This document shows, in pieces, positions 6,855 through 24,138 of a stretch of DNA of 64,000 nucleotides. The stretch's first letter is position 1, and every line of letters starts with the position of its first letter. Position numbers and translations under genes: made by a program. The stretch is from Halobium salinum (GTDB lineage Archaea > Halobacteriota > Halobacteria > Halobacteriales > Haloferacaceae): assembly GCF_026586625.1 (NCBI RefSeq), contig NZ_JAODIW010000008.1, forward strand, positions 615,811 through 679,810. Direction: 5' to 3'. Under the pieces are notes generated by a model, which saw nothing but the letters and a program-made list of their open reading frames with translations, had not been told where the DNA came from and ran no database searches.

Positions 6855-6967
6855 GCCCTGACGGATTCGAACCTCGGTCGTTCCGCTCACTTCGTTCGCT
6901 CCACTCCCTGGTTCGAATCCGCAGCACGTAGGGTTCGGCCCTTCGCTGTCGCTCGGGGCACTCACAC
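6855..6967. repeat. tRNA-derived palindromic repeat, copy a1
   Basis: Begins with the acceptor/T-arm 3' sequence of the tRNA(CAT) gene on the minus strand (GGCCCTGACGGATTCGAACC), continues into CTCGGTCGTTCCGCTCACTT, and closes with an inverted GGTTCGAATCC near 6910-6920. It ends with CTCGGGGCACTCACA. Near-identical copies sit at 10521-10651 and 23950-24063. This is the flank to the left of displaced tRNA half b1. The 220 nt between the flavoprotein and this copy hold an open frame without a start codon and no confident gene. Confidence 0.75.
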
Positions 6968-7120
6968 GGGCCCTGACGGATTCGAACCATCGACCACTCG
7001 ATTATGAGGCGAGACGTGTTCGGAACCGGACGGGTACAGCCGACCCGTGCTCATGGCTACCTAGAGTGGCGTTTTGCCGGCAAGTACTGAGCATTGCTGT
7101 GGAAGGCATGCAACCGAGTG
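6968..7120 (-). repeat. Displaced tRNA(CAT) 3' half plus element end, copy b1
   Basis: On the minus strand this reads as element sequence followed by the 3' half of the tRNA(CAT) gene: anticodon loop with CAT, variable loop, T-arm with GGTTCGAATCC, acceptor AGGGCCC. Homology to the intact gene (24064-24138) covers about 6968-7013 and stops in the anticodon stem. The next ~105 nt is shared with b2 and b3, including a hairpin (ACGGGT/ACCCGT), the perfect palindrome TTGCCGGCAA at 7074-7083 and GGCATGCAACCGAGTG at the end. It is read as an attachment site with one element arm. Confidence 0.8.
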
Positions 7121-10520: not shown

Positions 10521-10651
10521 GCTCGGGGCACTCACATAGGCCCTACGGATTCGAACCTCGGTCGTTCCGCTCACTTCGTTCGCTTCACTCCCTGCTTCGA
10601 ATCCTCAGGTCGTGCAGTTCGGTCCCTCGCTGTCGCTCGGGACACTCACAT
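10521..10651. repeat. tRNA-derived palindromic repeat, copy a2
   Basis: A near copy of a1: GCCCTACGGATTCGAACC, CTCGGTCGTTCCGCTCACTT and an inverted CTTCGAATCC, ending in CTCGGGACACTCACATGA. It is preceded at 10521-10537 by GCTCGGGGCACTCACAT, the tail of yet another copy, so two units were once in tandem. Position: immediately left of displaced tRNA half b2, which makes it the right arm of island E1. Confidence 0.7.
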
Positions 10652-10806
10652 GAGCCCTGACGGATTCGAACCATCGACCACTCGGTTATGAGGCGAGACG
10701 TGTTCGGAACCGGACGGGTACAGCCGACCCGTGCTCGCGGCTACCTAGAGGACCGTTTTCCCGGCAAAGAGTGTAAGCATTGCTGTGCAAGGCATGCAGC
10801 CGAGTG
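10652..10806 (-). repeat. Displaced tRNA(CAT) 3' half plus element end, copy b2
   Basis: Same build as b1: tRNA 3' half (about 10652-10697, anticodon loop TTATGAG in + orientation) and then ~105 nt of shared element end with the ACGGGT/ACCCGT hairpin, AGCATTGCTGTGCAAGG and GGCATGCAGCCGAGTG. The TTGCCGGCAA palindrome is damaged here (TTCCCGGCAA), and the acceptor begins GAGCCC instead of GGGCCC, so this copy is not under tRNA selection. Confidence 0.8.
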
Positions 10807-10832: not shown

Positions 10833-11186
10833 TCAGCCGAGGTAGTCGATGAGCGACTGAACCGCGTCGTCGACGACCGAATCGTCCAGTGTTCCTTGCC
10901 AGTGGTCGATGTCCCCACTTCCAATCGACTGGACGCTCCACGGGACGACGCGACTCTCGGCAGGCGTTCCACCGCGAACCCAACTCGCTTCGGGAATCTC
11001 GATGAAGTCCTCGTGCCACGTCTTCGTCGTCAGGGTCAGCGCGATGTACTGGTCGCCGTGAAACGGCTGTCCCTCGTGATTCGAGACGACGAGCCACGGA
11101 CGAGCAGCTTCTCCACCTTTGAACGGGTCGTCACCGTAGACGACATCACCGGGTTCGTAAGTCGGGGACGGCTCTTCGTCCGTCAC
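10833..11186 (-). CDS. PemK/MazF-family toxin
   Basis: A 117-residue SH3-like PemK/MazF protein. Hallmarks: EPGDVVYGDDPF near the N-terminus, the RPWLVVSN strand, and a QYIALTLTT strand before the variable C-terminus. MazF toxins cleave mRNA; whether this one does is inferred. Its ATG (11186) overlaps the stop of the upstream winged-helix gene by 4 nt, the usual antitoxin-then-toxin order. It is the first gene inside island E2, next to the att repeat, a position where addiction modules are often found. Confidence 0.75.
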   Translation of the reverse strand: MTDEEPSPTYEPGDVVYGDDPFKGGEAARPWLVVSNHEGQPFHGDQYIALTLTTKTWHEDFIEIPEASWVRGGTPAESRVVPWSVQSIGSGDIDHWQGTLDDSVVDDAVQSLIDYLG

Positions 11187-11554
11187 TCCGTATCCTCCAG
11201 ACTCGGATGTGGCTCTTCAGGGGCGTGTTCCTGCCACTCGTCCTTGTTCTCACGGCCGAGCCGTTCGTTGTAGAGCGCCGTCGCGCGTTCGTAGCCACTG
11301 TACGACCGAAGTCGGTCGTCGTCGGTCGTTACGGCCCAGTAGGTCGCCTTGTGTTCGACGAGGCCGCGTCCCTTCAGCCGAGTCAGTGCGGTACTTACTG
11401 CGCTCTCGTCGGGGTCCGTCTGGGCTGCGATCTCGCGTGCTTGGAACGCACGGTCATCGTGTGCGACGAGGAATCCGAGAACCTGGTCCGGAACGGAGAG
11501 TTCCGTGAGTTCGTCTTCGCTCGTGTTCTCGAAGGTTTCCCGGTCGATCGACAT
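11183..11554 (-). CDS. MarR-like winged-helix protein, probable antitoxin of the MazF pair
   Basis: A 123-residue protein with a winged helix-turn-helix at about 20-85 (VPDQVLGFLVAHDDRAFQAR ... AVSTALTRLKGRGLVEHKAT), which resembles MarR/TrmB domains, followed by a charged C-terminal tail (DEWQEHAPEEPHPSLEDTE) that could wrap the toxin. It is coupled to the MazF-like gene by an ATGA overlap. The pairing of this type of regulator with PemK/MazF is common in haloarchaea; autoregulation of the operon is likely but inferred. Confidence 0.65.
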   Translation of the reverse strand: MSIDRETFENTSEDELTELSVPDQVLGFLVAHDDRAFQAREIAAQTDPDESAVSTALTRLKGRGLVEHKATYWAVTTDDDRLRSYSGYERATALYNERLGRENKDEWQEHAPEEPHPSLEDTE

Positions 11555-12819: not shown

Positions 12820-13389
12820 TCACGGCCATCCGCTGGGAAGTTCGTCCCGATGGTCGTGCATCAACCGAAGCAGTGGCGCGATGTCCTCGAAGTTCGGCCC
12901 CCGTCGAATCGTTTCGGTGTCTTCGTTCCACTCGATGTAGCCTGCGTCGGCTAACTTCGGGAGATGTATTCGGTACAGTTCGTCGGTGAGCATCTCGAGG
13001 TCGTCGTCCTCGGTCGCCAACTCGTCGACGGAGAACTCGTCTTCGTCACGAGGATTGTGCTCACTTACGAGTAAGAGGATACGGCGACGATACGGGTGTC
13101 CGAGTACGTCGAACATCCTATCGAGGTGACGGGGTGTCTCACTCCCGTCTGTCATGATGGTGGCCGGCGGAGCGGCAAGAACGTCCGTTCCCAACAGGGC
13201 CGCACGTATCCCCTTCCGTATCGTCCGGGAGACATCGACTGTCGGTTGGTCGAGGTCGTCGGCGACGTCGACTAACGATGCCGCTCTCGGGTCGTCGAAG
13301 TAGCCGAGTTCGAGCGCACGTCGAAGGGTTTCTCGTTCCTTGGCGGTCAACTCGGTCGGATGTTCCGTATCTGATGTCCTCATTTTCAT
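12820..13389 (-). CDS. Two-domain regulator: HTH-10-like helix-turn-helix plus DUF7344 winged helix
   Basis: A 189-residue protein with two DNA-binding-type domains. Residues about 13-70 resemble HTH-10 (LTAKERETLRRALELGYFDD, SLVDVADDLDQPTVDVSRTI). Residues about 90-185 match the haloarchaeal DUF7344 winged helix (MFDVLGHPYRRRILLLVSEH ... YRIHLPKLADAGYIEWNEDT). An internal ATG at about 13155 could start the second domain alone. It sits between the BAT regulator and the giant PAS/GAF regulator, all on the same strand. The target is unknown; local control of these neighbours is a guess. Confidence 0.7.
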   Translation of the reverse strand: MKMRTSDTEHPTELTAKERETLRRALELGYFDDPRAASLVDVADDLDQPTVDVSRTIRKGIRAALLGTDVLAAPPATIMTDGSETPRHLDRMFDVLGHPYRRRILLLVSEHNPRDEDEFSVDELATEDDDLEMLTDELYRIHLPKLADAGYIEWNEDTETIRRGPNFEDIAPLLRLMHDHRDELPSGWP

Positions 13390-13556: not shown

Positions 13557-16500
13557 CTACGACGAATTCGGCTCCGTCCCTTCTGACTCGGCGGGAGTGG
13601 TCTCGTCGAAGAGGAACTCACAGAGCTTTCGCTCGGCTTCTCGCAAGTGATACGAGAACGTCGACTGAGAGATGTCCAAGAGCTCGGTGACGTCCGTCGC
13701 CGAGTTCACACGCGGGGACTCGAAGAACCCGCTCCGGTAGGCCGTCTGGAGGACTTCTCGCTGTCTGTCGGTCAGTTCAGCACCGATCACGGCCGAGATC
13801 GTCTGCTGGGTCGAAGGCACCCGCTGACGAGTCCTGCGTGTGAGAAGCTCGAGCTCGGGATAGAACGTACGTAGGTCGTCGAGGAGCGCACCGACTTCGA
13901 CGGAACTCGAGAGATCGACGACGGCCGTCGCAGTCCCCGCGTCGACCGTGAGCGAGCGGACCACCGCACCGCCAGCGACCAGTCGTGAGGCGATCGTCGG
14001 CTCGACCACCCGAGCCTTGAACAGCGTCTCGTCCGCACGCTCTAGAACTGTCTGTACAGTATCGAACACGAGGAGCTGCTCGGCGACGGAGCGGACCCTC
14101 TCCGCCGACGTCTCGCTCACCGTGAAGAACACGTCCGGTTCGCCGTCCGAGCGAGAGACGAGTCCCTCGAATTCGATTACGCATTCGGCGCGGCGCGAGA
14201 GCTGGCAGAGCGGTGTGTTCGCCTCCGGGAACCGAAGCGTGAGTTCGACCACCGTGTCCGTCTGCCGCGTCGTTGCAGTCTCGGTCGCAGTGATGGCGTG
14301 AGCGATGGTCTGCCCGAGCTCCGCCAACACCTCGGTTTCGCGCTCGTCGGGCTGTGGGGTCCGTCCGTACACCACCAGAACGCCGAAAACCGACCCCCGG
14401 TACGAGAGCGGGACCGCGACAAGCGAGCGTGCACCCCCTTCGAGCGCCAACTTCCGCCAATCCGCTGCCCGACTGTCCGTTGCGATGTCGGAGACGGTCT
14501 GCATCTCGCCGCTCCGGACAGTGGCCGTGAACGGGTTCGTCTCTGGCGTCGACGAGTGTGACGCGTCGATGAGTGTTTCCAGCCGGTGGCTCTCGATACC
14601 CGCCCACGCTCGCGGTTCGACCGACTCCGTCCCCGCGTCGTAGTCGCCGATCCACGCGAACCCGAACAGTTCCGAGCCCGCCAGTTGATTACAGACCGCT
14701 TCGTCGATTTCATCGACAGTACTGGCCCTCACGAGTCCTTGGTCGATTGCCCGAATGAGCGTGTTGAGGCGGTCGAGCCGGGTCAGCTCCTCGTTCCGTT
14801 GTGCTAGCTCCTGCTCGCTGTCGGCGCGATCCCACGTGGTCTTGACGGTGGAGACGACCATCTGCAGGAGGTCGAGGAGCCGAGTGTCGAACGTCTCGGA
14901 GTCCTCCGAGCCAACACAGACCACGCCGTGCCGGCCTAACGGCGCGAACACTCGACTTCCCAGCCCCGACGGCCACGGGTCACCGTCAGCGATGTCGAGC
15001 GCATTCTCGACGTTGAGTTCGTCACCGACGAACGTCTCCCAGACCTGCCCGTGGGAGACCTCCGCCGGACGAATCGCATCGAAGTCGGTTCCGGGGACCG
15101 CGTGTTCGGTGTCCAGTTCGATGTCGCCAGTCCGCGCGTCGTACCTCCAGAGCGCTGCGTACTCGACGTCGAGGACATCGACGACGAGTTGAGCCACCCT
15201 CTCGCTGATCGTCTCCGGGTCGGCGTCGATCAGCTGACGACTCACGTCGTTGAGTCGTTCGAGGGACTGATTGGAGCGAGTCAGCGCCTGCTCGGCGCGG
15301 GCGCGTTCCACCACCGTCCAAGTACGGTCCGCTACCTCCTCTAGCAGTGATATTTCGGCGACGGTCCAGTCGTGTGAATCGCTGTAAACCGCGTACAACG
15401 CCCAGTCTACACCTTCCTCGTCGGTCCGGATCGGCGCGCCGATCCAGGCACCGAAATCGAGTTCGAGGAGCGCCTGCCGTTCTGCCTCGGGGAGCGTCGA
15501 ATCGTTCGCGACGTCGTGGTATACGGGCGTCTCCGTCCCGATCTGTTGGATGGCTTCTGGAAAGGCCGAGAACGGGTACAGGCCGCTGACCGGGTCAAGG
15601 GTGGAAGAATGGTACTCCGGCCCGACCAGCGCCTCTTCGGCGTCGGCGTCGAACCGGACGAAGTAGGCCCTGTCGAGTCCCAACTCCTCGGCGAGCAGTC
15701 GCGTACAGGCCTCCCCGATCTCCTGCTCGGTGGTGAGTGTGTGTAGCTGGTCGCTGAGTTCGAGCAGGAACTGTTCGTGCTTCTCTCGGCGCTTGCGCTC
15801 GGTGATGTCGTCGTACAGCGCGGCGATCACGTCCCCCTCGCGGGGGAATAGGCGCACGTCGTACCACCGGTCGTTCGCGGGGACGTAGGTCTCGACACGC
15901 TCGGGCTCGCCCGTCTCGACGACTCCTCGGCACTGCTCGAAGAGGGACTCGTCCTGTCCGGGGAACACCTCCGTCAAGAGCCGCCCTTCCGCGTCGGTCC
16001 GACCGACGCCGGTCAGCTCCTCGAAGGCTTCGTTCAGCTCGAGATACTGCAGATCACTAACCGTTCCGTCGGCGTCACGAACGAGTTCACAGAGGGCGAA
16101 CCCTTCGTCGATCTCCTCGAACAGCGAGCGATATTTCTTCTCACTCTCCTCGAGAGCCTCGTAGGCCGCCCGCTGCTGCATGAGGTCGGCGACCTGCCGG
16201 GAGATCACGTCCAGTAAGTGGAGGTCTCGCTCGGACGGCTCGTGCGTGTCCGCCCAGTGAGTCGAGAACATTCCGAGTAGCTCTCCGCTTCGCGAGACCA
16301 GCGGCGTGGACTGCACCGATCGGATTCCGGCCCGGTTGAAGGCTTCGAGGTCGTCGCCGTCTTCGATGAACTCGCACGACTGGACGTCCGGAACGACGAC
16401 GCGCTCCTCCGTCTGCAGGGCTCTCGCACAACTGCTCGACGTTTCGACACCGACCCGGTCCCAGTGCGCGATCATCTCTCCCGAGAATCCCCGGTAGGCG

Positions 16501-18746
16501 AACATGTCGAGTTCGCGCGCCTGGGGGTCGAGTCGCTGTATCGTCCCGAACTCGGCGTCCACGAGGTCCATACCGGTGTCGAGAACCGATTCGTACAGGC
16601 CATCACCGTCGTCGTGCTGGATCGACCGGGTGCTGACCTCCTGGAGTTGCTTCATTGCCTCCAGTTCGGCAGCGAGTTTCTCTTCGGCCTGTGCCCGCTG
16701 GACTGCCTCCCAGGTCCGGTCGACCGTCTCTTCGAGCAAGGCGATGTCCGCCTCAGTCCACTCCCGGGGCACGGAACTGGTCACCGCCATGACCACCGCC
16801 GGCTCGCCGTTTTTGACCAGGGGAGTCGACAGCGTGGCACGAACCCCGCGTTGGGCCATCCCGGTCCGTTCACTCTCGCTCAACGCGGGGTCACGTTCCG
16901 CGTCGTTTACGATGAGCGAGCGACGACCGAGCCACGCTTCCGCGTGCGCCGGAAAGTCGTCGAAGTGGTATTCACCCACGAGACTCGGGAGCTCGTCGAC
17001 GTCTTGTCCGCCCCGGTAGTAGTCTCGCGTGATGTCGATGACCGCTCGGTCGAGATCGAGCTCGCCGTACTGCGCTCGCTTGACGTCGAGATGCTCGCCC
17101 AAGACGCGACACGCTTCCTCCTGGATCGCTACCGGATCGGTGAGCGAGCGGAGCGCATCGTTCAACTCGACCAGATAGGACTGCCGTTCCTCGCTCTCGC
17201 GGAGTTTCTCTTCTATCTCCTTGCGCTCGGTGATGTCGATACCAGTCCCGAAGACGCGAACCGCCCGCCGGTCCTCCCCGTCTCCCTCGAAGAACACCTC
17301 GCCGTTCGTGAGCACCCACCGTTCGCTCCCGTCGGGACGCGTCGCTCTAAACTCGAACTCGTAGTCCCCGCTAGACTCGGACTCGAACACCTCTTCCAAT
17401 CGGTCGACGACCCATTCGTGGTCGTCCGGATGGACGCGCTCCTCGAGCAACGCTGGGCCGACGATAGTCTCGTCCTCGTCGTATCCGAACAGCTCGTTCA
17501 TTCGCTCGTTTCCACTCACGAGACCCGTCTCGAGATTCCACTCGAAGACAGCGACGTTCGCGATGTCGGTCGCGAGTCGAAGCCGCTTTTCGCTCGTACG
17601 TAACGCTGTTTCGGTCTCCTTTCGCTCGGTAACGTCCTGAAAGACGACGGCCACCCGTCGGGGCCCCGCCCCCTCGGGCCTGAACACGTAGAAGTCGTAC
17701 CAGATGCCGTCCGGCTCGGTGTACAGTTCGTGTCGCTCGTCCTCACCCGTTGTGGCGACGCGGCCGAACACCTCGTACAAGTACTCCTCGTAGTCTGTAT
17801 CGATCTCGGTCAGCCAGCGCCCCTCGAACTCTTCGCCGACCATCTCGGTCGCCGCCGGGTTCGAGTCTCGATAGAAGATGTCGAGTGGCTCACCGTCGCT
17901 GTCGAAGACCACGTCGGCCAGGAAGAACCCCTCGTCCATCGAGTCCAGAACGGTCTGATAGCGCCATTGGGTCTCCTGTTTGCGTTTCTGAAGCGCTGCC
18001 TCAGCTTTCACGCGGCCGGTGACCTCCACCGAGACGTTGAACACTCCACCGATGGACCCGTCCGCGACTGGGATAGGGTTGAAACTGGAATCGAACCAGA
18101 CGTCCTCCACTGTCTCACCACGTTCGAGCGGGAGGTACTTCTCTTCGACTCGAACTGCTCCCTCCCCGGCCATCACCTGCTCGTGCATCGAAGCGAGCGT
18201 CTCCCACGCCTCCGGAAACACCTCGCGAGCAGGCCGTCCGAGTGCATCCGGGTGTTTCTTCCCGATTTGCTCCCGCGCAGCGTCGTTGTACAGCAGTATG
18301 AGGTCCGTCCCCCAGTAGATGCCAATGGCCTCATCGGACCCCAGCATGATGTCGACGGCGACCCGCAATTCGGGAGGCCACTCGTCTATCGGACCAAGTG
18401 GCGTGCTGGCCCACTCGAACTCTCGGATACGCTCGGCCATTTCGCTATCGACAGTAGACGAGGGTGCCTGCCCATCTCGGAGTGAGACCGGGTGAAGTCG
18501 GTCACGAGCGCCACCGTTCCGTAGGGCATCACCGTCGACGGGTCGCCACCAGACGCGACTTTTCGCACCGACCTTCTTGGTCTGTAGAATTCCGTCGTCG
18601 ACGAGCGCGTCCAATCGGTTGTAGATGGTCCGCTGGGTGCAGTCGAACCCGTCGGCGACTTCCGGAGTCGTCACCGGGGTGCCGGGTGGGCCGAGAGCGT
18701 CGACCTTCTCCAGCACGTCTTCGGGCGCTGGTGTGGCCGGTGTCAT
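13557..18746 (-). CDS. Giant PAS/GAF multi-sensor regulator with DNA-binding domains at both ends (1729 aa)
   Basis: A single open frame of 1729 residues. Order, roughly: N-terminal winged helix (10-70, TTPEVADGFDCTQRTIYNRL); PAS (110-245), PAS (265-375) and PAS (385-510), the last two ending in DVTERK/DITERK motifs; GAF (520-690); GAF (710-850); PAS (875-990, DDITERK); GAF (1000-1150); GAF (1165-1310); GAF (1335-1485); BAT-type domain (1495-1640); HTH-10 (about 1655-1715, LTDRQREVLQTAYRSGFFES). No histidine kinase, ATPase or receiver domain is seen, so it should act as a one-component regulator integrating several signals. Usual HTH-10 sensors are 500-1000 residues. The ligands (light, redox, small molecules) cannot be read from sequence. 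Confidence 0.85.
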   Translation of the reverse strand: MTPATPAPEDVLEKVDALGPPGTPVTTPEVADGFDCTQRTIYNRLDALVDDGILQTKKVGAKSRVWWRPVDGDALRNGGARDRLHPVSLRDGQAPSSTVDSEMAERIREFEWASTPLGPIDEWPPELRVAVDIMLGSDEAIGIYWGTDLILLYNDAAREQIGKKHPDALGRPAREVFPEAWETLASMHEQVMAGEGAVRVEEKYLPLERGETVEDVWFDSSFNPIPVADGSIGGVFNVSVEVTGRVKAEAALQKRKQETQWRYQTVLDSMDEGFFLADVVFDSDGEPLDIFYRDSNPAATEMVGEEFEGRWLTEIDTDYEEYLYEVFGRVATTGEDERHELYTEPDGIWYDFYVFRPEGAGPRRVAVVFQDVTERKETETALRTSEKRLRLATDIANVAVFEWNLETGLVSGNERMNELFGYDEDETIVGPALLEERVHPDDHEWVVDRLEEVFESESSGDYEFEFRATRPDGSERWVLTNGEVFFEGDGEDRRAVRVFGTGIDITERKEIEEKLRESEERQSYLVELNDALRSLTDPVAIQEEACRVLGEHLDVKRAQYGELDLDRAVIDITRDYYRGGQDVDELPSLVGEYHFDDFPAHAEAWLGRRSLIVNDAERDPALSESERTGMAQRGVRATLSTPLVKNGEPAVVMAVTSSVPREWTEADIALLEETVDRTWEAVQRAQAEEKLAAELEAMKQLQEVSTRSIQHDDGDGLYESVLDTGMDLVDAEFGTIQRLDPQARELDMFAYRGFSGEMIAHWDRVGVETSSSCARALQTEERVVVPDVQSCEFIEDGDDLEAFNRAGIRSVQSTPLVSRSGELLGMFSTHWADTHEPSERDLHLLDVISRQVADLMQQRAAYEALEESEKKYRSLFEEIDEGFALCELVRDADGTVSDLQYLELNEAFEELTGVGRTDAEGRLLTEVFPGQDESLFEQCRGVVETGEPERVETYVPANDRWYDVRLFPREGDVIAALYDDITERKRREKHEQFLLELSDQLHTLTTEQEIGEACTRLLAEELGLDRAYFVRFDADAEEALVGPEYHSSTLDPVSGLYPFSAFPEAIQQIGTETPVYHDVANDSTLPEAERQALLELDFGAWIGAPIRTDEEGVDWALYAVYSDSHDWTVAEISLLEEVADRTWTVVERARAEQALTRSNQSLERLNDVSRQLIDADPETISERVAQLVVDVLDVEYAALWRYDARTGDIELDTEHAVPGTDFDAIRPAEVSHGQVWETFVGDELNVENALDIADGDPWPSGLGSRVFAPLGRHGVVCVGSEDSETFDTRLLDLLQMVVSTVKTTWDRADSEQELAQRNEELTRLDRLNTLIRAIDQGLVRASTVDEIDEAVCNQLAGSELFGFAWIGDYDAGTESVEPRAWAGIESHRLETLIDASHSSTPETNPFTATVRSGEMQTVSDIATDSRAADWRKLALEGGARSLVAVPLSYRGSVFGVLVVYGRTPQPDERETEVLAELGQTIAHAITATETATTRQTDTVVELTLRFPEANTPLCQLSRRAECVIEFEGLVSRSDGEPDVFFTVSETSAERVRSVAEQLLVFDTVQTVLERADETLFKARVVEPTIASRLVAGGAVVRSLTVDAGTATAVVDLSSSVEVGALLDDLRTFYPELELLTRRTRQRVPSTQQTISAVIGAELTDRQREVLQTAYRSGFFESPRVNSATDVTELLDISQSTFSYHLREAERKLCEFLFDETTPAESEGTEPNSS

Positions 18747-18964
18747 ACGGTGGCCACGCTACGGGCGAGTAAAAGCGTTCTGTGGATGGAAAACGTATCG
18801 CCAGTTCTCGGAGGTATAGACGGGTATCTCGGAACGACGGACCTTCGGACAGCAACCCAGTACGAGGAACTCAGATTCAAGAACTGAGTGGCGACGGAAC
18901 GTGGAGAGGTGCCGAGACGGTTCGTTTCGTATGTCATCAGGCGCTGGTGCAGTGGCCGCAAGCG

Positions 18965-19066
18965 CTCGGCTCGGTGCCTTGCGCTCCGACTTATATGTAC
19001 TGTCAGGATCGGAGAGAACTCGGCTAATCGATCTCAGAACTCGAATCGCCGAAAATCGGGACGTAT
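18965..19066. repeat. Island end flank, copy c1
   Basis: About 102 nt beginning CTCGGCTCGGTGCCTTG and ending AATCGGGACGTATGG, shared with 23848-23949. It contains a TATA-like TTATATG and the block TCGGAGAGAACTCGGCT. It abuts displaced tRNA half b3 and is read as the right arm of island E2. The ~220 nt between the giant regulator and this flank contain no gene that I can support. Confidence 0.7.
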
Positions 19067-19220
19067 GGGCCCTGACGGATTCGAACCATCGACCACCGGT
19101 TATGAGGCGAGACGTATTCGGAACCGGACGGGTACAGCCGACCCGTGCTTACGGCTACCTGAACCGTTGATTTGCCGGCAAGTAGTGTAAGCACTGCTGT
19201 GCAAGGCATGCAACCGAGTG
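19067..19220 (-). repeat. Displaced tRNA(CAT) 3' half plus element end, copy b3
   Basis: Same build as b1 and b2. The tRNA part covers about 19067-19110 with a one-base loss in the anticodon stem (ACCACCGGTTATGAG). The shared element end follows, with the GACGGGTACAGCCGACCCGT hairpin, palindrome TTGCCGGCAA at 19172-19181, AAGCACTGCTGTGCAAGG and GGCATGCAACCGAGTG. The three b copies agree much better with each other than with anything else in the window. Confidence 0.8.
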
Positions 19221-19302: not shown

Positions 19303-22176
19303 ATGGTGACGGCGACAGGTCCCTCGAAACCCCTCTCCGACCGACTATCCGTCCTCGTCGTCGATGCAGCGACCGACGGAAACGATGTCTATAGACACCT
19401 CGTCGGAACCGAAGGGATCACCGCGACTAGAGTTACGAACGGTTCGGACTGTCTCGCTCGGCTCGGTTCACGGGGAGAGACAGTCGACTGCATTCTGCTC
19501 ACCGACGACCTCGCAGAAATGCCATCTACCGAACTAATCGAGGAGGTTCGGGAGGAACACTCGGGGATACCGGTGGTGCTGGTGGCAACAGAGGGTAGCG
19601 AAGACCTCGCGAGTCGTGCGTTGGCCGCCGGGGCCACCGACTACCTCCCCGCAGATGCAATCGGCGACGACTTCGATGTAGAACTCCGTAATCGGTTGAC
19701 GCGGGCTGTAACGACCTATCGAGCCAGGAGAGAGACGACACGGCACGCAAATCAGTTCGACGCGCTGTTCGACGATCAAGATACGTTCCTCTGGGTGGTC
19801 GGAACGGACGGTCGAATCAGCCAGGTCAACGATACGGCGACGGCAGCCGTCTCGGAGAACAGAGCGAATCTACTCGGCACGCGATTCGAGAAGTCGCGTT
19901 GGTGGGACGGCTCCAGAACCGACCGAGAGACGGTCGAGAACGCGTTTCGGTCCGCGATGGACGGGGACGTCGTTCGGTTCGAGACCGATGTCCGAGCGGC
20001 CGAGCGGTTCGTGGAACTCGACCTCTCGTTTCGGCCAGTAACCAATGGAGTCGGTGAGGTAACCAGCGTCATCGTCGAGGGGACGGACATCAGCGAACGT
20101 GTCCAACTGGAACGGGACCTTCGGCAGTCGGAGGAACTCCACCGGGTCACGCTCAACAACATGACCGACACGGTCCTCGTGACCGACGACGAGGGTGCGT
20201 TCACCTACATCTGTCCCAACGTCCACTTCATCTTCGGCTACTCGGCCGGGGAGATTCGAGAGATGGGGAACATCGACGAGGTGCTCGGTGCGGACCTGTT
20301 CGAGGACGAAGAGCTCGAATCGGAAGGTGTCCTCACGAACGTCGAGTGTACCGCGACCGACAAACGAGGGCGCGAACACACACTTCTGGTGAACGTTCGG
20401 GACGTCTCGATTCAGGGCGGAACGACCCTCTATAGTTGCCGTGACATCACGAAGCGGAAGGAACGAGAACGCGCACTCACCGCTCTCCACCGGACGAGCC
20501 GTAACCTCCTGTACGCGGAGACTGAGGCGGAGGTCGCCGAGATAGCGATCGATGACGCGACCGAAATCCTCGACCTGGACGCCTGTGGCGTCTACCTCTT
20601 CGATTCCGAGGCGAACGAACTGTGGCCGGCGGCGGTGACCGGTCGGCGGTTATCCGAATCTGTCTCGCGGCTGAGCTTGGAAGAACCAGGCCCCTCCGGA
20701 GAGGCGTTCGTGGAACAGACGGCACGACGGTTCGGCGAAGGTAACCGAGGTGTCGGGGGGACTGCTCCCGACGTCGCCTTCGACGAGGGGATAGCCGTCC
20801 CACTGAGCGACCACGGCGTTCTCGTGGTCGGCTCCGACGGCCCCGAGGGGTTCGACAGCGTGACGGAAGAGATCGTCGATCTGCTCGCCGCGACGACCGA
20901 AGCGGCCCTCGACCGCGTCGAGCGGGAGACGGAACTGAGAGAACGAGACGTGGAGCTCGAACAGCGGAACCGCCAACTCCTCGAGCTCGACCGGACGAAC
21001 GAGATCATCAGGGAGATCGACCAGACGCTGATCGCGGCGGACTCGCGTGCCGAGATCGAACACGCCGTCTGTGATCGGCTCACCGGAGACGGCCGGTTCG
21101 CGTTCGCGTGGGTCGGCCGTGTCGAACCCGGGTCGGATCGAGTACATCCGAAAGCCTGGTCCGGGGACGGACGAGGCTATCTCGACAGCGTCCGACTGTC
21201 GAAGACCGAGAGTCGGGAACCATCCGTGCTGGCGACTACAGATGGCGACACGACTGTGGTTACGAGTGTCGGGAAGGACCTCTCTACAGCTCCGTGGCGG
21301 AGGGAAGCGCTCTCCAGAGGGTACCAATCCGTCGTGAGCGTACCACTCTCGCGCGGCGATGCAGCGTATGGCGTACTCACCGTGTACGCCGACCGGCCGG
21401 ACGCGTTCGAGGACCGTGGGACGGCAATCCTCTCCGAACTCGGCGAGACGACTGCCGCCGCGATTCAAGCCATCGAACGAAAGGAGGCCCTCGTCAGCGA
21501 CCAGGTGACCGAACTCGACTACCGTCTCACCGACTCGAACTGCGTCTTTCGGACGATGGCCGCCGCAGCGTCGTGCGACATCGAACTGGTCGGCGGCGTA
21601 CAGCAGACGGAGCACGGCGTTCGACTGCTGGCCAGCCTCGACTCGGCGGAACTGCGCCACGCTATCGAAGCGATGGACGAACTCACGCAGATACAGTCGG
21701 TTCGACTCGTATCCGACGACGAGTGCCTGATACAGGTGACGATAGCTGGGGAGTTCGTCGCGACGTTCTTGGCGGAACACGGAGCCGCCGTCGAATCGCT
21801 ACGTGCGACTCCGGATGCGGCTCACCTCTCCGTCGTCGTTCCACGACCCGTCGACGCTCGAACGATAGACCGTGTACTCACCGGACGGTATCCGAACGCG
21901 GAACTCCTCGCACAGCGCACGAACGACCGACCTGCTCTCACAGGTGGACGGTTCCGGGCGCGTATCACCGACCGGCTAACCGACCGGCAGCTGGAAGTCG
22001 CACAGATGGCCCACCACAGCGGGTACTTCGAGACTCCACGACGAAACGGCGGTGAAGAGGTCGCGAATCGTCTGGGAATCTCCTCGACCGCCTTCTACGA
22101 CCACGTCCGGAACGTGCAGCAGAAACTCTTCACAGAACTGTTCAGCGAAACGCAGACCCACCGAGTCGAGGGTTGA
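19303..22176 (+). CDS. Receiver/PAS/GAF/HTH-10 transcriptional regulator (957 aa)
   Basis: A one-component-like regulator. Order: receiver-type fold (about 12-135, LSVLVVDAATDGNDVYRHLV ... AAGATDYLPADAI) in which the conserved Lys appears lost; PAS (145-268) ending DISERV; PAS (275-388) ending DITKRK; GAF (395-545); GAF (565-725); BAT-type domain (735-885); HTH-10 (about 893-950, LTDRQLEVAQMAHHSGYFET, GISSTAFYDHVRNVQQKL). No kinase domain. It shares the GAF-GAF-BAT-HTH-10 back half with the giant regulator of island E2, which suggests common descent. It is followed by the zinc ribbon and glutamate dehydrogenase genes, which are possible targets (inference). Confidence 0.85.
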   Translation: MVTATGPSKPLSDRLSVLVVDAATDGNDVYRHLVGTEGITATRVTNGSDCLARLGSRGETVDCILLTDDLAEMPSTELIEEVREEHSGIPVVLVATEGSEDLASRALAAGATDYLPADAIGDDFDVELRNRLTRAVTTYRARRETTRHANQFDALFDDQDTFLWVVGTDGRISQVNDTATAAVSENRANLLGTRFEKSRWWDGSRTDRETVENAFRSAMDGDVVRFETDVRAAERFVELDLSFRPVTNGVGEVTSVIVEGTDISERVQLERDLRQSEELHRVTLNNMTDTVLVTDDEGAFTYICPNVHFIFGYSAGEIREMGNIDEVLGADLFEDEELESEGVLTNVECTATDKRGREHTLLVNVRDVSIQGGTTLYSCRDITKRKERERALTALHRTSRNLLYAETEAEVAEIAIDDATEILDLDACGVYLFDSEANELWPAAVTGRRLSESVSRLSLEEPGPSGEAFVEQTARRFGEGNRGVGGTAPDVAFDEGIAVPLSDHGVLVVGSDGPEGFDSVTEEIVDLLAATTEAALDRVERETELRERDVELEQRNRQLLELDRTNEIIREIDQTLIAADSRAEIEHAVCDRLTGDGRFAFAWVGRVEPGSDRVHPKAWSGDGRGYLDSVRLSKTESREPSVLATTDGDTTVVTSVGKDLSTAPWRREALSRGYQSVVSVPLSRGDAAYGVLTVYADRPDAFEDRGTAILSELGETTAAAIQAIERKEALVSDQVTELDYRLTDSNCVFRTMAAAASCDIELVGGVQQTEHGVRLLASLDSAELRHAIEAMDELTQIQSVRLVSDDECLIQVTIAGEFVATFLAEHGAAVESLRATPDAAHLSVVVPRPVDARTIDRVLTGRYPNAELLAQRTNDRPALTGGRFRARITDRLTDRQLEVAQMAHHSGYFETPRRNGGEEVANRLGISSTAFYDHVRNVQQKLFTELFSETQTHRVEG

Positions 22177-24063: not shown

Positions 24064-24138
24064 TGGGCCCTGCCGGATTTGAACCAACGACCACTCGGTT
24101 ATGAGCCGAGCGCTCTAACCAGACTGAGCTAAGGGCCC
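24064..24138 (-). tRNA. tRNA with CAT anticodon (elongator Met or Ile2)
   Basis: Complete cloverleaf on the minus strand: acceptor GGGCCCT/AGGGCCC, D-stem GCTC/GAGC, anticodon stem CTCGG/CCGAG around loop CTCATAA, T-stem GTTGG/CCGGC with loop TTCAAAT, discriminator A. The three G-C pairs typical of initiator tRNA at the base of the anticodon stem are absent, so it is elongator Met or a modified Ile2 tRNA. No intron, no encoded CCA. It is the intact target whose 3' half recurs at 6968, 10652 and 19067. Confidence 0.93.

Follow-up and report, generated by a model that had tools for sequence, protein, structure and literature searches.

Does a single haloarchaeal regulator carry a DNA-binding domain at each of its ends, and, if so, what is the second one used for? 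The question is raised by a gene of Halobium salinum located at 13557..18746 (minus strand) in the window, the 64,000-nucleotide stretch of DNA analyzed as a whole here. The gene is a single open frame starting from the ATG at 18746 and encodes a regulator of 1729 residues. The first-pass annotation had described an N-terminal winged helix, four PAS domains, about five GAF domains, a BAT domain, and a C-terminal HTH_10 without a kinase, and a domain search of the full protein bore out this layout. All of the domains lie on the minus strand. The winged helix (residues 8–70; 18537..18725) is followed by three PAS domains (residues ~118–240, ~258–375, and ~383–515, the first two boundaries being approximate; 17202..18395; Pfam and TIGR00229), two GAF domains (residues ~525–690 and ~700–865, approximate; 16152..17174; Pfam), the fourth PAS domain (residues ~870–990; 15777..16139; Pfam), and three more GAF domains (residues ~1000–1165, ~1175–1330, and ~1342–1485, the first two approximate; 14292..15749; Pfam). 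The chain closes with BAT (residues 1497–1650; 13797..14258; Pfam PF15915, E = 1.7e-34) and HTH_10 (residues 1658–1709; 13620..13775; Pfam PF04967, E = 6.6e-19). Four PAS stretches were assigned by TIGR00229 of NCBIfam, with several PAS models matching in Pfam, and five GAF_2 stretches by Pfam. The protein thus shows the features of a Bat-type regulator, namely PAS/GAF sensors (4 PAS, 5 GAF) ahead of BAT and an HTH_10 adjoining BAT at the C-terminus. Neither HisKA nor HATPase was matched in Pfam at E values as high as 1, so the protein does not classify as a sensor histidine kinase; Pfam also gave no match to Response_reg (REC), a domain that is typical of the N-terminus of Bat-type regulators but not obligatory. 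The AlphaFold2 (AF2) model of the BAT-HTH_10 segment had a pLDDT of 90, and a Foldseek search with the BAT segment found no convincing relative.

The identity of the N-terminal domain was examined through its homologues and its predicted structure. The AF2 model, built on 70 homologues, gave, in the structure check proposed in the first-pass annotation, a canonical winged helix with helices at residues 8–18, 27–32, and 38–51 and wing strands at 55–58 and 64–67 (pLDDT ~90). The three-helix core and the wing correspond to the ArsR/HTH_20-like winged-helix fold, in which residues 38–51 are the recognition helix and 55–67 the wing. Pfam places HTH_20 at residues 21–54; taken alone, the domain scored a marginal 26.4 bits against the Pfam cut-off of 27, and 65 of the 70 family members matched at E<0.01. 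P24, E29, R39, L45, L48, and W67 are invariant in the 70 sequences. Foldseek found generic winged helices only and no specific relative, the best match being CzrA (1r1u, E 8e-3). Family conservation and the AF2 model together indicate that the N-terminal domain is a genuine winged helix. Its pN/pS was 0.08–0.21 against the eight nearest homologues, and the regulator is evidently translated and under purifying selection.

Proteins with this domain are widespread. The first 257 residues were matched in 244 of the 293 genomes of the order, many of the weaker matches being short proteins. Among 60 long frames fetched, the winged helix was confirmed in the chosen frame for 55, which ended in BAT-HTH_10 (46), a kinase HATPase (6), or neither clearly (3). 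An independent scan of named genomes with the wing pattern KKVG[AT]x[GSA]RVW yielded 80 loci, 70 of which encode the winged helix and BAT-HTH_10 in one frame; two others end in a kinase, and the remainder are short, truncated, or unclassified. The pattern fixes residues 57–61 and 64–66 and leaves residue 62 free, and the search itself therefore accounts for some of the wing conservation seen among the named genomes. Both sets answer the check proposed in the first-pass annotation, namely whether homologues keep both ends, and the spread of the architecture removes the basis for regarding the protein as unusual. The emphasis formerly placed on its size was also misplaced: homologue frames reach 2307 residues (Natronococcus amylolyticus), so that 1729 residues are unexceptional and large size is ruled out as a novelty. 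Several family members are plasmid-borne and annotated as 'bacterio-opsin activator domain-containing protein'. When long Bat proteins were counted by eye, those with the winged helix amounted to 1 of 11 in the genome of the window and to about four of 18 and four of 22 in two further genomes; a fourth genome had no long Bat protein with a confirmed winged helix. The two-ended architecture is thus common among haloarchaea, making up between about one in four and one in 11 of the long Bat proteins in three genomes. One homologue (L068, G156:C28:219109-219866) has its winged helix and first PAS domain in different frames, reflecting a frameshift, a sequencing error, or a split gene.

The two ends are also inherited together. 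Pairwise distances computed for the winged helix and for BAT-HTH_10 correlate with r = 0.75, compared with a permutation maximum of 0.12. Identities to the nine closest homologues are 80–87% for the winged helix, 48–71% for HTH_10, and 43–50% for BAT; by these values, conservation within the protein is highest in the winged helix. Among the same homologues, the sensors between the ends have been swapped and duplicated. The ends are therefore the fixed part of the protein and the sensors the variable part. The chain separating the winged helix from BAT-HTH_10 ranges from 154 to 2002 residues, a 13-fold difference.

Alignment of the upstream sequences revealed what the front end may recognize. 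A 14-bp palindrome of the TTCCRTYGAYGGAA type, of which CTCCGCCGGCGGAG is a variant, lies at −45 to −48 from the start codon, and a TATA-like box directly follows it, about three bases on. At least six of the eight arm positions were matched at −52 to −42 in 107 of 121 non-redundant genes; over a wider range of positions, the palindrome was found in 109 of the 121 genes, compared with 14 of 121 when a control region lying another 100 nt upstream was scored. It also precedes genes encoding winged helix-kinase proteins and stand-alone winged helices, and the upstream score reached at most 5/8 in 10 Bat genes without a winged helix. Exact TTCCGTTGACGGAA occurred at 18 sites in 195 genomes, with one site for the reversed control. 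Nine of the 18 sit 39–85 nt ahead of a winged-helix domain; none of the other nine shows the layout of operator, box, and start codon. Five of the exact TTCCGTTGACGGAA sites (L253–L257) represent a single conserved intergenic site shared by five genomes that belong to the same genus; it lies near a 78-residue zinc-ribbon ORF and has no winged helix nearby. In eight loci (L066, L086, L092, L094, L105, L116, L193, and L201), a winged helix of identical type and the palindrome accompany a fusion to a histidine kinase, and these genes may encode self-regulated sensor kinases.

In the window, the candidate operator TTCCATCCACAGAA (18778..18791, minus strand) is located at −45 from the ATG and is followed by the TATA-like box GCTTTTAC (18769..18776, minus strand), about 26 nt before the ATG, a spacing consistent with a transcript that is leaderless and begins at the methionine of the winged helix. 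The operator is a degenerate form of the TTCTATCGACAGAA of its clade: four of the seven palindrome pairs are kept, and the right half-site is intact and matches the clade. Exact TTCTATCGACAGAA was found at two sites in the 195 genomes, neither near a winged helix. The clade operator has seven sites at ≤2 mismatches in the genome of the window, the promoter of the gene itself being the sole one that we consider credible, and the few other matches preceding start codons look like chance occurrences. No second copy of an operator was found in the flanking sequences covered. The arrangement also bears on the start of the protein. An internal start that would remove the winged helix was ruled out, with the operator and the box at a fixed distance from the upstream start codon. 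The two circumstances that the first-pass annotation had named as fatal to its idea, loss of the winged helix in homologues and an internal start skipping it, do not hold, because the homologues retain the winged helix as their best-conserved part and the operator and box sit just before its start. The proposal of two DNA-binding ends has gained support, and the front end now has a predicted cognate site.

Variation in the operator was compared with variation in the protein. Over 114 genes, the positions sharing the most information with the operator included residues 36–43 in the recognition helix and 62–63 in the wing, with the loop at 19–21 also high. Operator distance followed nine recognition and wing residues with a partial r of 0.40 in a partial Mantel test (0/500; 96 genes with the C-terminus) once the remaining winged-helix residues and the C-terminus had been controlled for, a value that is somewhat optimistic because the nine residues were chosen after the mutual-information ranking. 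In the same 96 genes, HTH_10 distance contributed next to nothing, with a partial r of 0.055 (32/500), and the distance of the whole C-terminus contributed nothing to operator variation. Residue 62 (serine or not) and operator positions 6/9 (C/G or not) changed on the same branch in six of nine cases on the C-terminal tree and in seven of 10 on a tree built without the contact residues (P<1/3000 on both trees), and cross-pairs gave no co-change. A single one of the eight HTH_10 control positions had P 0.03, which is within the expectation for chance. The gene in the window has K62 with T6/A9, matching the expectation. We therefore consider residue 62 a candidate specificity residue of the winged helix. 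A second pairing looks chemically right: R38 occurs with C4/G11 in 72 of 77 cases and Q38 with T4/A11 in 8 of 10. It is only suggestive, because it is based on just 2–4 changes; the same data gave P 0.0002 or 0.04 depending on ancestral tie-breaking, and the second tree gave 0.13. Operator positions 4/11 also scored with position 18, which is not on the expected contact surface. Covariation of residue 43 with bases 1/14 was unsupported once corrected for the tree.

These results bear on two other explanations of the palindrome. DNA binding by the winged helix is a prediction, and the palindrome might instead belong to a separate regulator of all these genes, with the winged helix serving for dimerization or protein contact. 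The operator variants, however, track the winged helix encoded by the gene they precede, residue 62 pairs with bases 6/9 and cross-pairs carry no signal, and stand-alone winged-helix genes have the palindrome too; we regard a separate regulator as quite unlikely. Alternatively, the winged helix and its promoter might travel together by recombination, in which case the covariation would reflect linkage and not contact. The two lie about 50 nt apart, and the sensor domains are clearly shuffled, both of which suit this explanation. Linkage predicts co-change at many winged-helix positions, whereas among the 41–43 other variable positions at most one (2.4%) reached P<0.01 for each operator pair, and cross-pairs gave none, making linkage very unlikely. 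Most likely, the front domain grips the palindrome within the promoter of the gene that encodes it.

We propose that the protein is a one-component, two-headed haloarchaeal regulator. A winged-helix dimer, with one subunit on each half-site, would bind the 14-bp palindrome adjoining the TATA-like box in the leaderless promoter of the gene, which would thereby be autoregulated. The four PAS and five GAF domains may sense small signals (redox, light, or a ligand, by comparison with other Bat proteins) and change the geometry of the dimer, while the C-terminal BAT-HTH_10 would act on other promoters after the manner of Bat and DmsR, from which the role of HTH_10 in regulating promoters is taken (PMC1447603). 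As a whole, the scheme of autoregulation through the palindrome, signal integration by the sensors, and action of HTH_10 elsewhere is probably correct. Repression is the more likely sign of the autoregulation, a guess from the site position, because the palindrome lies over the position of the BRE that TFB would bind; a site immediately upstream is also used by activators. The two heads might instead occupy separate sites simultaneously and bridge or loop DNA, for example with the front end tethered to its own promoter while HTH_10 reaches elsewhere. The co-inheritance of two conserved DNA-binding ends within a single chain and the candidate site of the front end are in keeping with such bridging. 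On the other side, the chain length varies 13-fold and the sensors are reshuffled, so there is no fixed geometry between the ends, and no HTH_10 site has been identified. A family of single chains using two sites at once, one of them at its own promoter, is rather unlikely; none of the results calls for bridging, and a simpler role for the second head is autoregulation of the gene through the front end. If the two sites were nevertheless used simultaneously, the sensor state and the autoregulation would be physically coupled to target promoters, DNA bridging included.

The surroundings of the gene point to mobility. Partial copies of tRNA-Met (3' half) are found at 6967-6998, 10651-10682, and 19066-19097, and an intact tRNA-Met at 24064-24138 (all minus strand), which suggests tandem integration at a tRNA hotspot. 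The cluster containing the regulator gene fills the 8.4 kb between the partial copies at 10651 and 19066, and the gene thus has the appearance of cargo carried at an integration hotspot. Downstream lies a gene for a 189-residue protein with an N-terminal HTH_10 and a C-terminal DUF7344 (12820..13389, minus strand), a small two-headed neighbor of the large one, DUF7344 being winged-helix-like. A DUF7344 gene is conserved downstream of about ten members of the clade; Halorarius halobius has the same gene order, with a partner 70% identical. No clear conserved motif precedes the downstream DUF7344 gene. An overlapping pair of PemK/MazF-like and MarR-like genes (10833-11186 and 11183-11554, minus strand) is probably a toxin-antitoxin module, and the same pair occurs near the homologue on a Halorarius halobius plasmid. 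The divergent gene at 19303-22176 (plus strand) encodes a typical Bat-like REC-PAS-GAF-BAT-HTH_10 regulator of 957 residues with a Response_reg match, and it lacks the palindrome. The position between tRNA-Met copies and the degenerate operator could mean that the gene is a mobile passenger in this genome whose N-terminal head no longer works. The intact 1729-residue frame and a winged helix that is 84% identical to its closest homologues with a low pN/pS argue against such decay, which we judge improbable.

Among known regulators, Bat (bacterio-opsin activator) of Halobacterium has a diverged REC at its N-terminus and one described DNA-binding end (PMC5847659). Bat and other REC-PAS-GAF-BAT-HTH_10 regulators (PMC5847659) share with the present protein the PAS/GAF sensors, BAT, and C-terminal HTH_10, whereas the latter begins with a winged helix that tracks a palindrome in its own promoter. 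HVO_1357 of Haloferax volcanii is likewise a multidomain BAT-HTH_10 regulator with GAF, but it is described with REC and HalX and without mention of a winged helix (PMC7824242). DmsR and NarO, activators of anaerobic respiration operons, have the same HTH_10 output and are described as lacking PAS and GAF, again with no winged helix mentioned (PMC11218638, PMC1447603). WP_255153124.1 (Halorarius halobius) and WP_012945185.1 (Haloterrigena turkmenica) have the architecture of the present protein with shorter chains and reshuffled sensors, and their annotation omits the N-terminal domain. The ArsR/TrmB/IclR-type winged helices (HTH_20) share the fold and the expectation of a dimer on a palindrome, whereas their sequence similarity to the front domain is weak and the front domain is fused to sensors and HTH_10. 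The open-access papers covered by our search describe neither the winged helix-BAT-HTH_10 architecture nor its operator, and in those papers this widespread family is not recognized as such.

Bat-type regulators count among the signaling proteins that haloarchaea have in greatest number, and to our knowledge few of their targets have been established. A readable operator for one head, together with a swappable candidate residue at position 62, makes this subfamily directly testable, and the predicted operator offers a handle on what the large sensor chains do. Since the same winged-helix module is also fused to kinases, its presence may be a general sign of sensor genes that regulate themselves.
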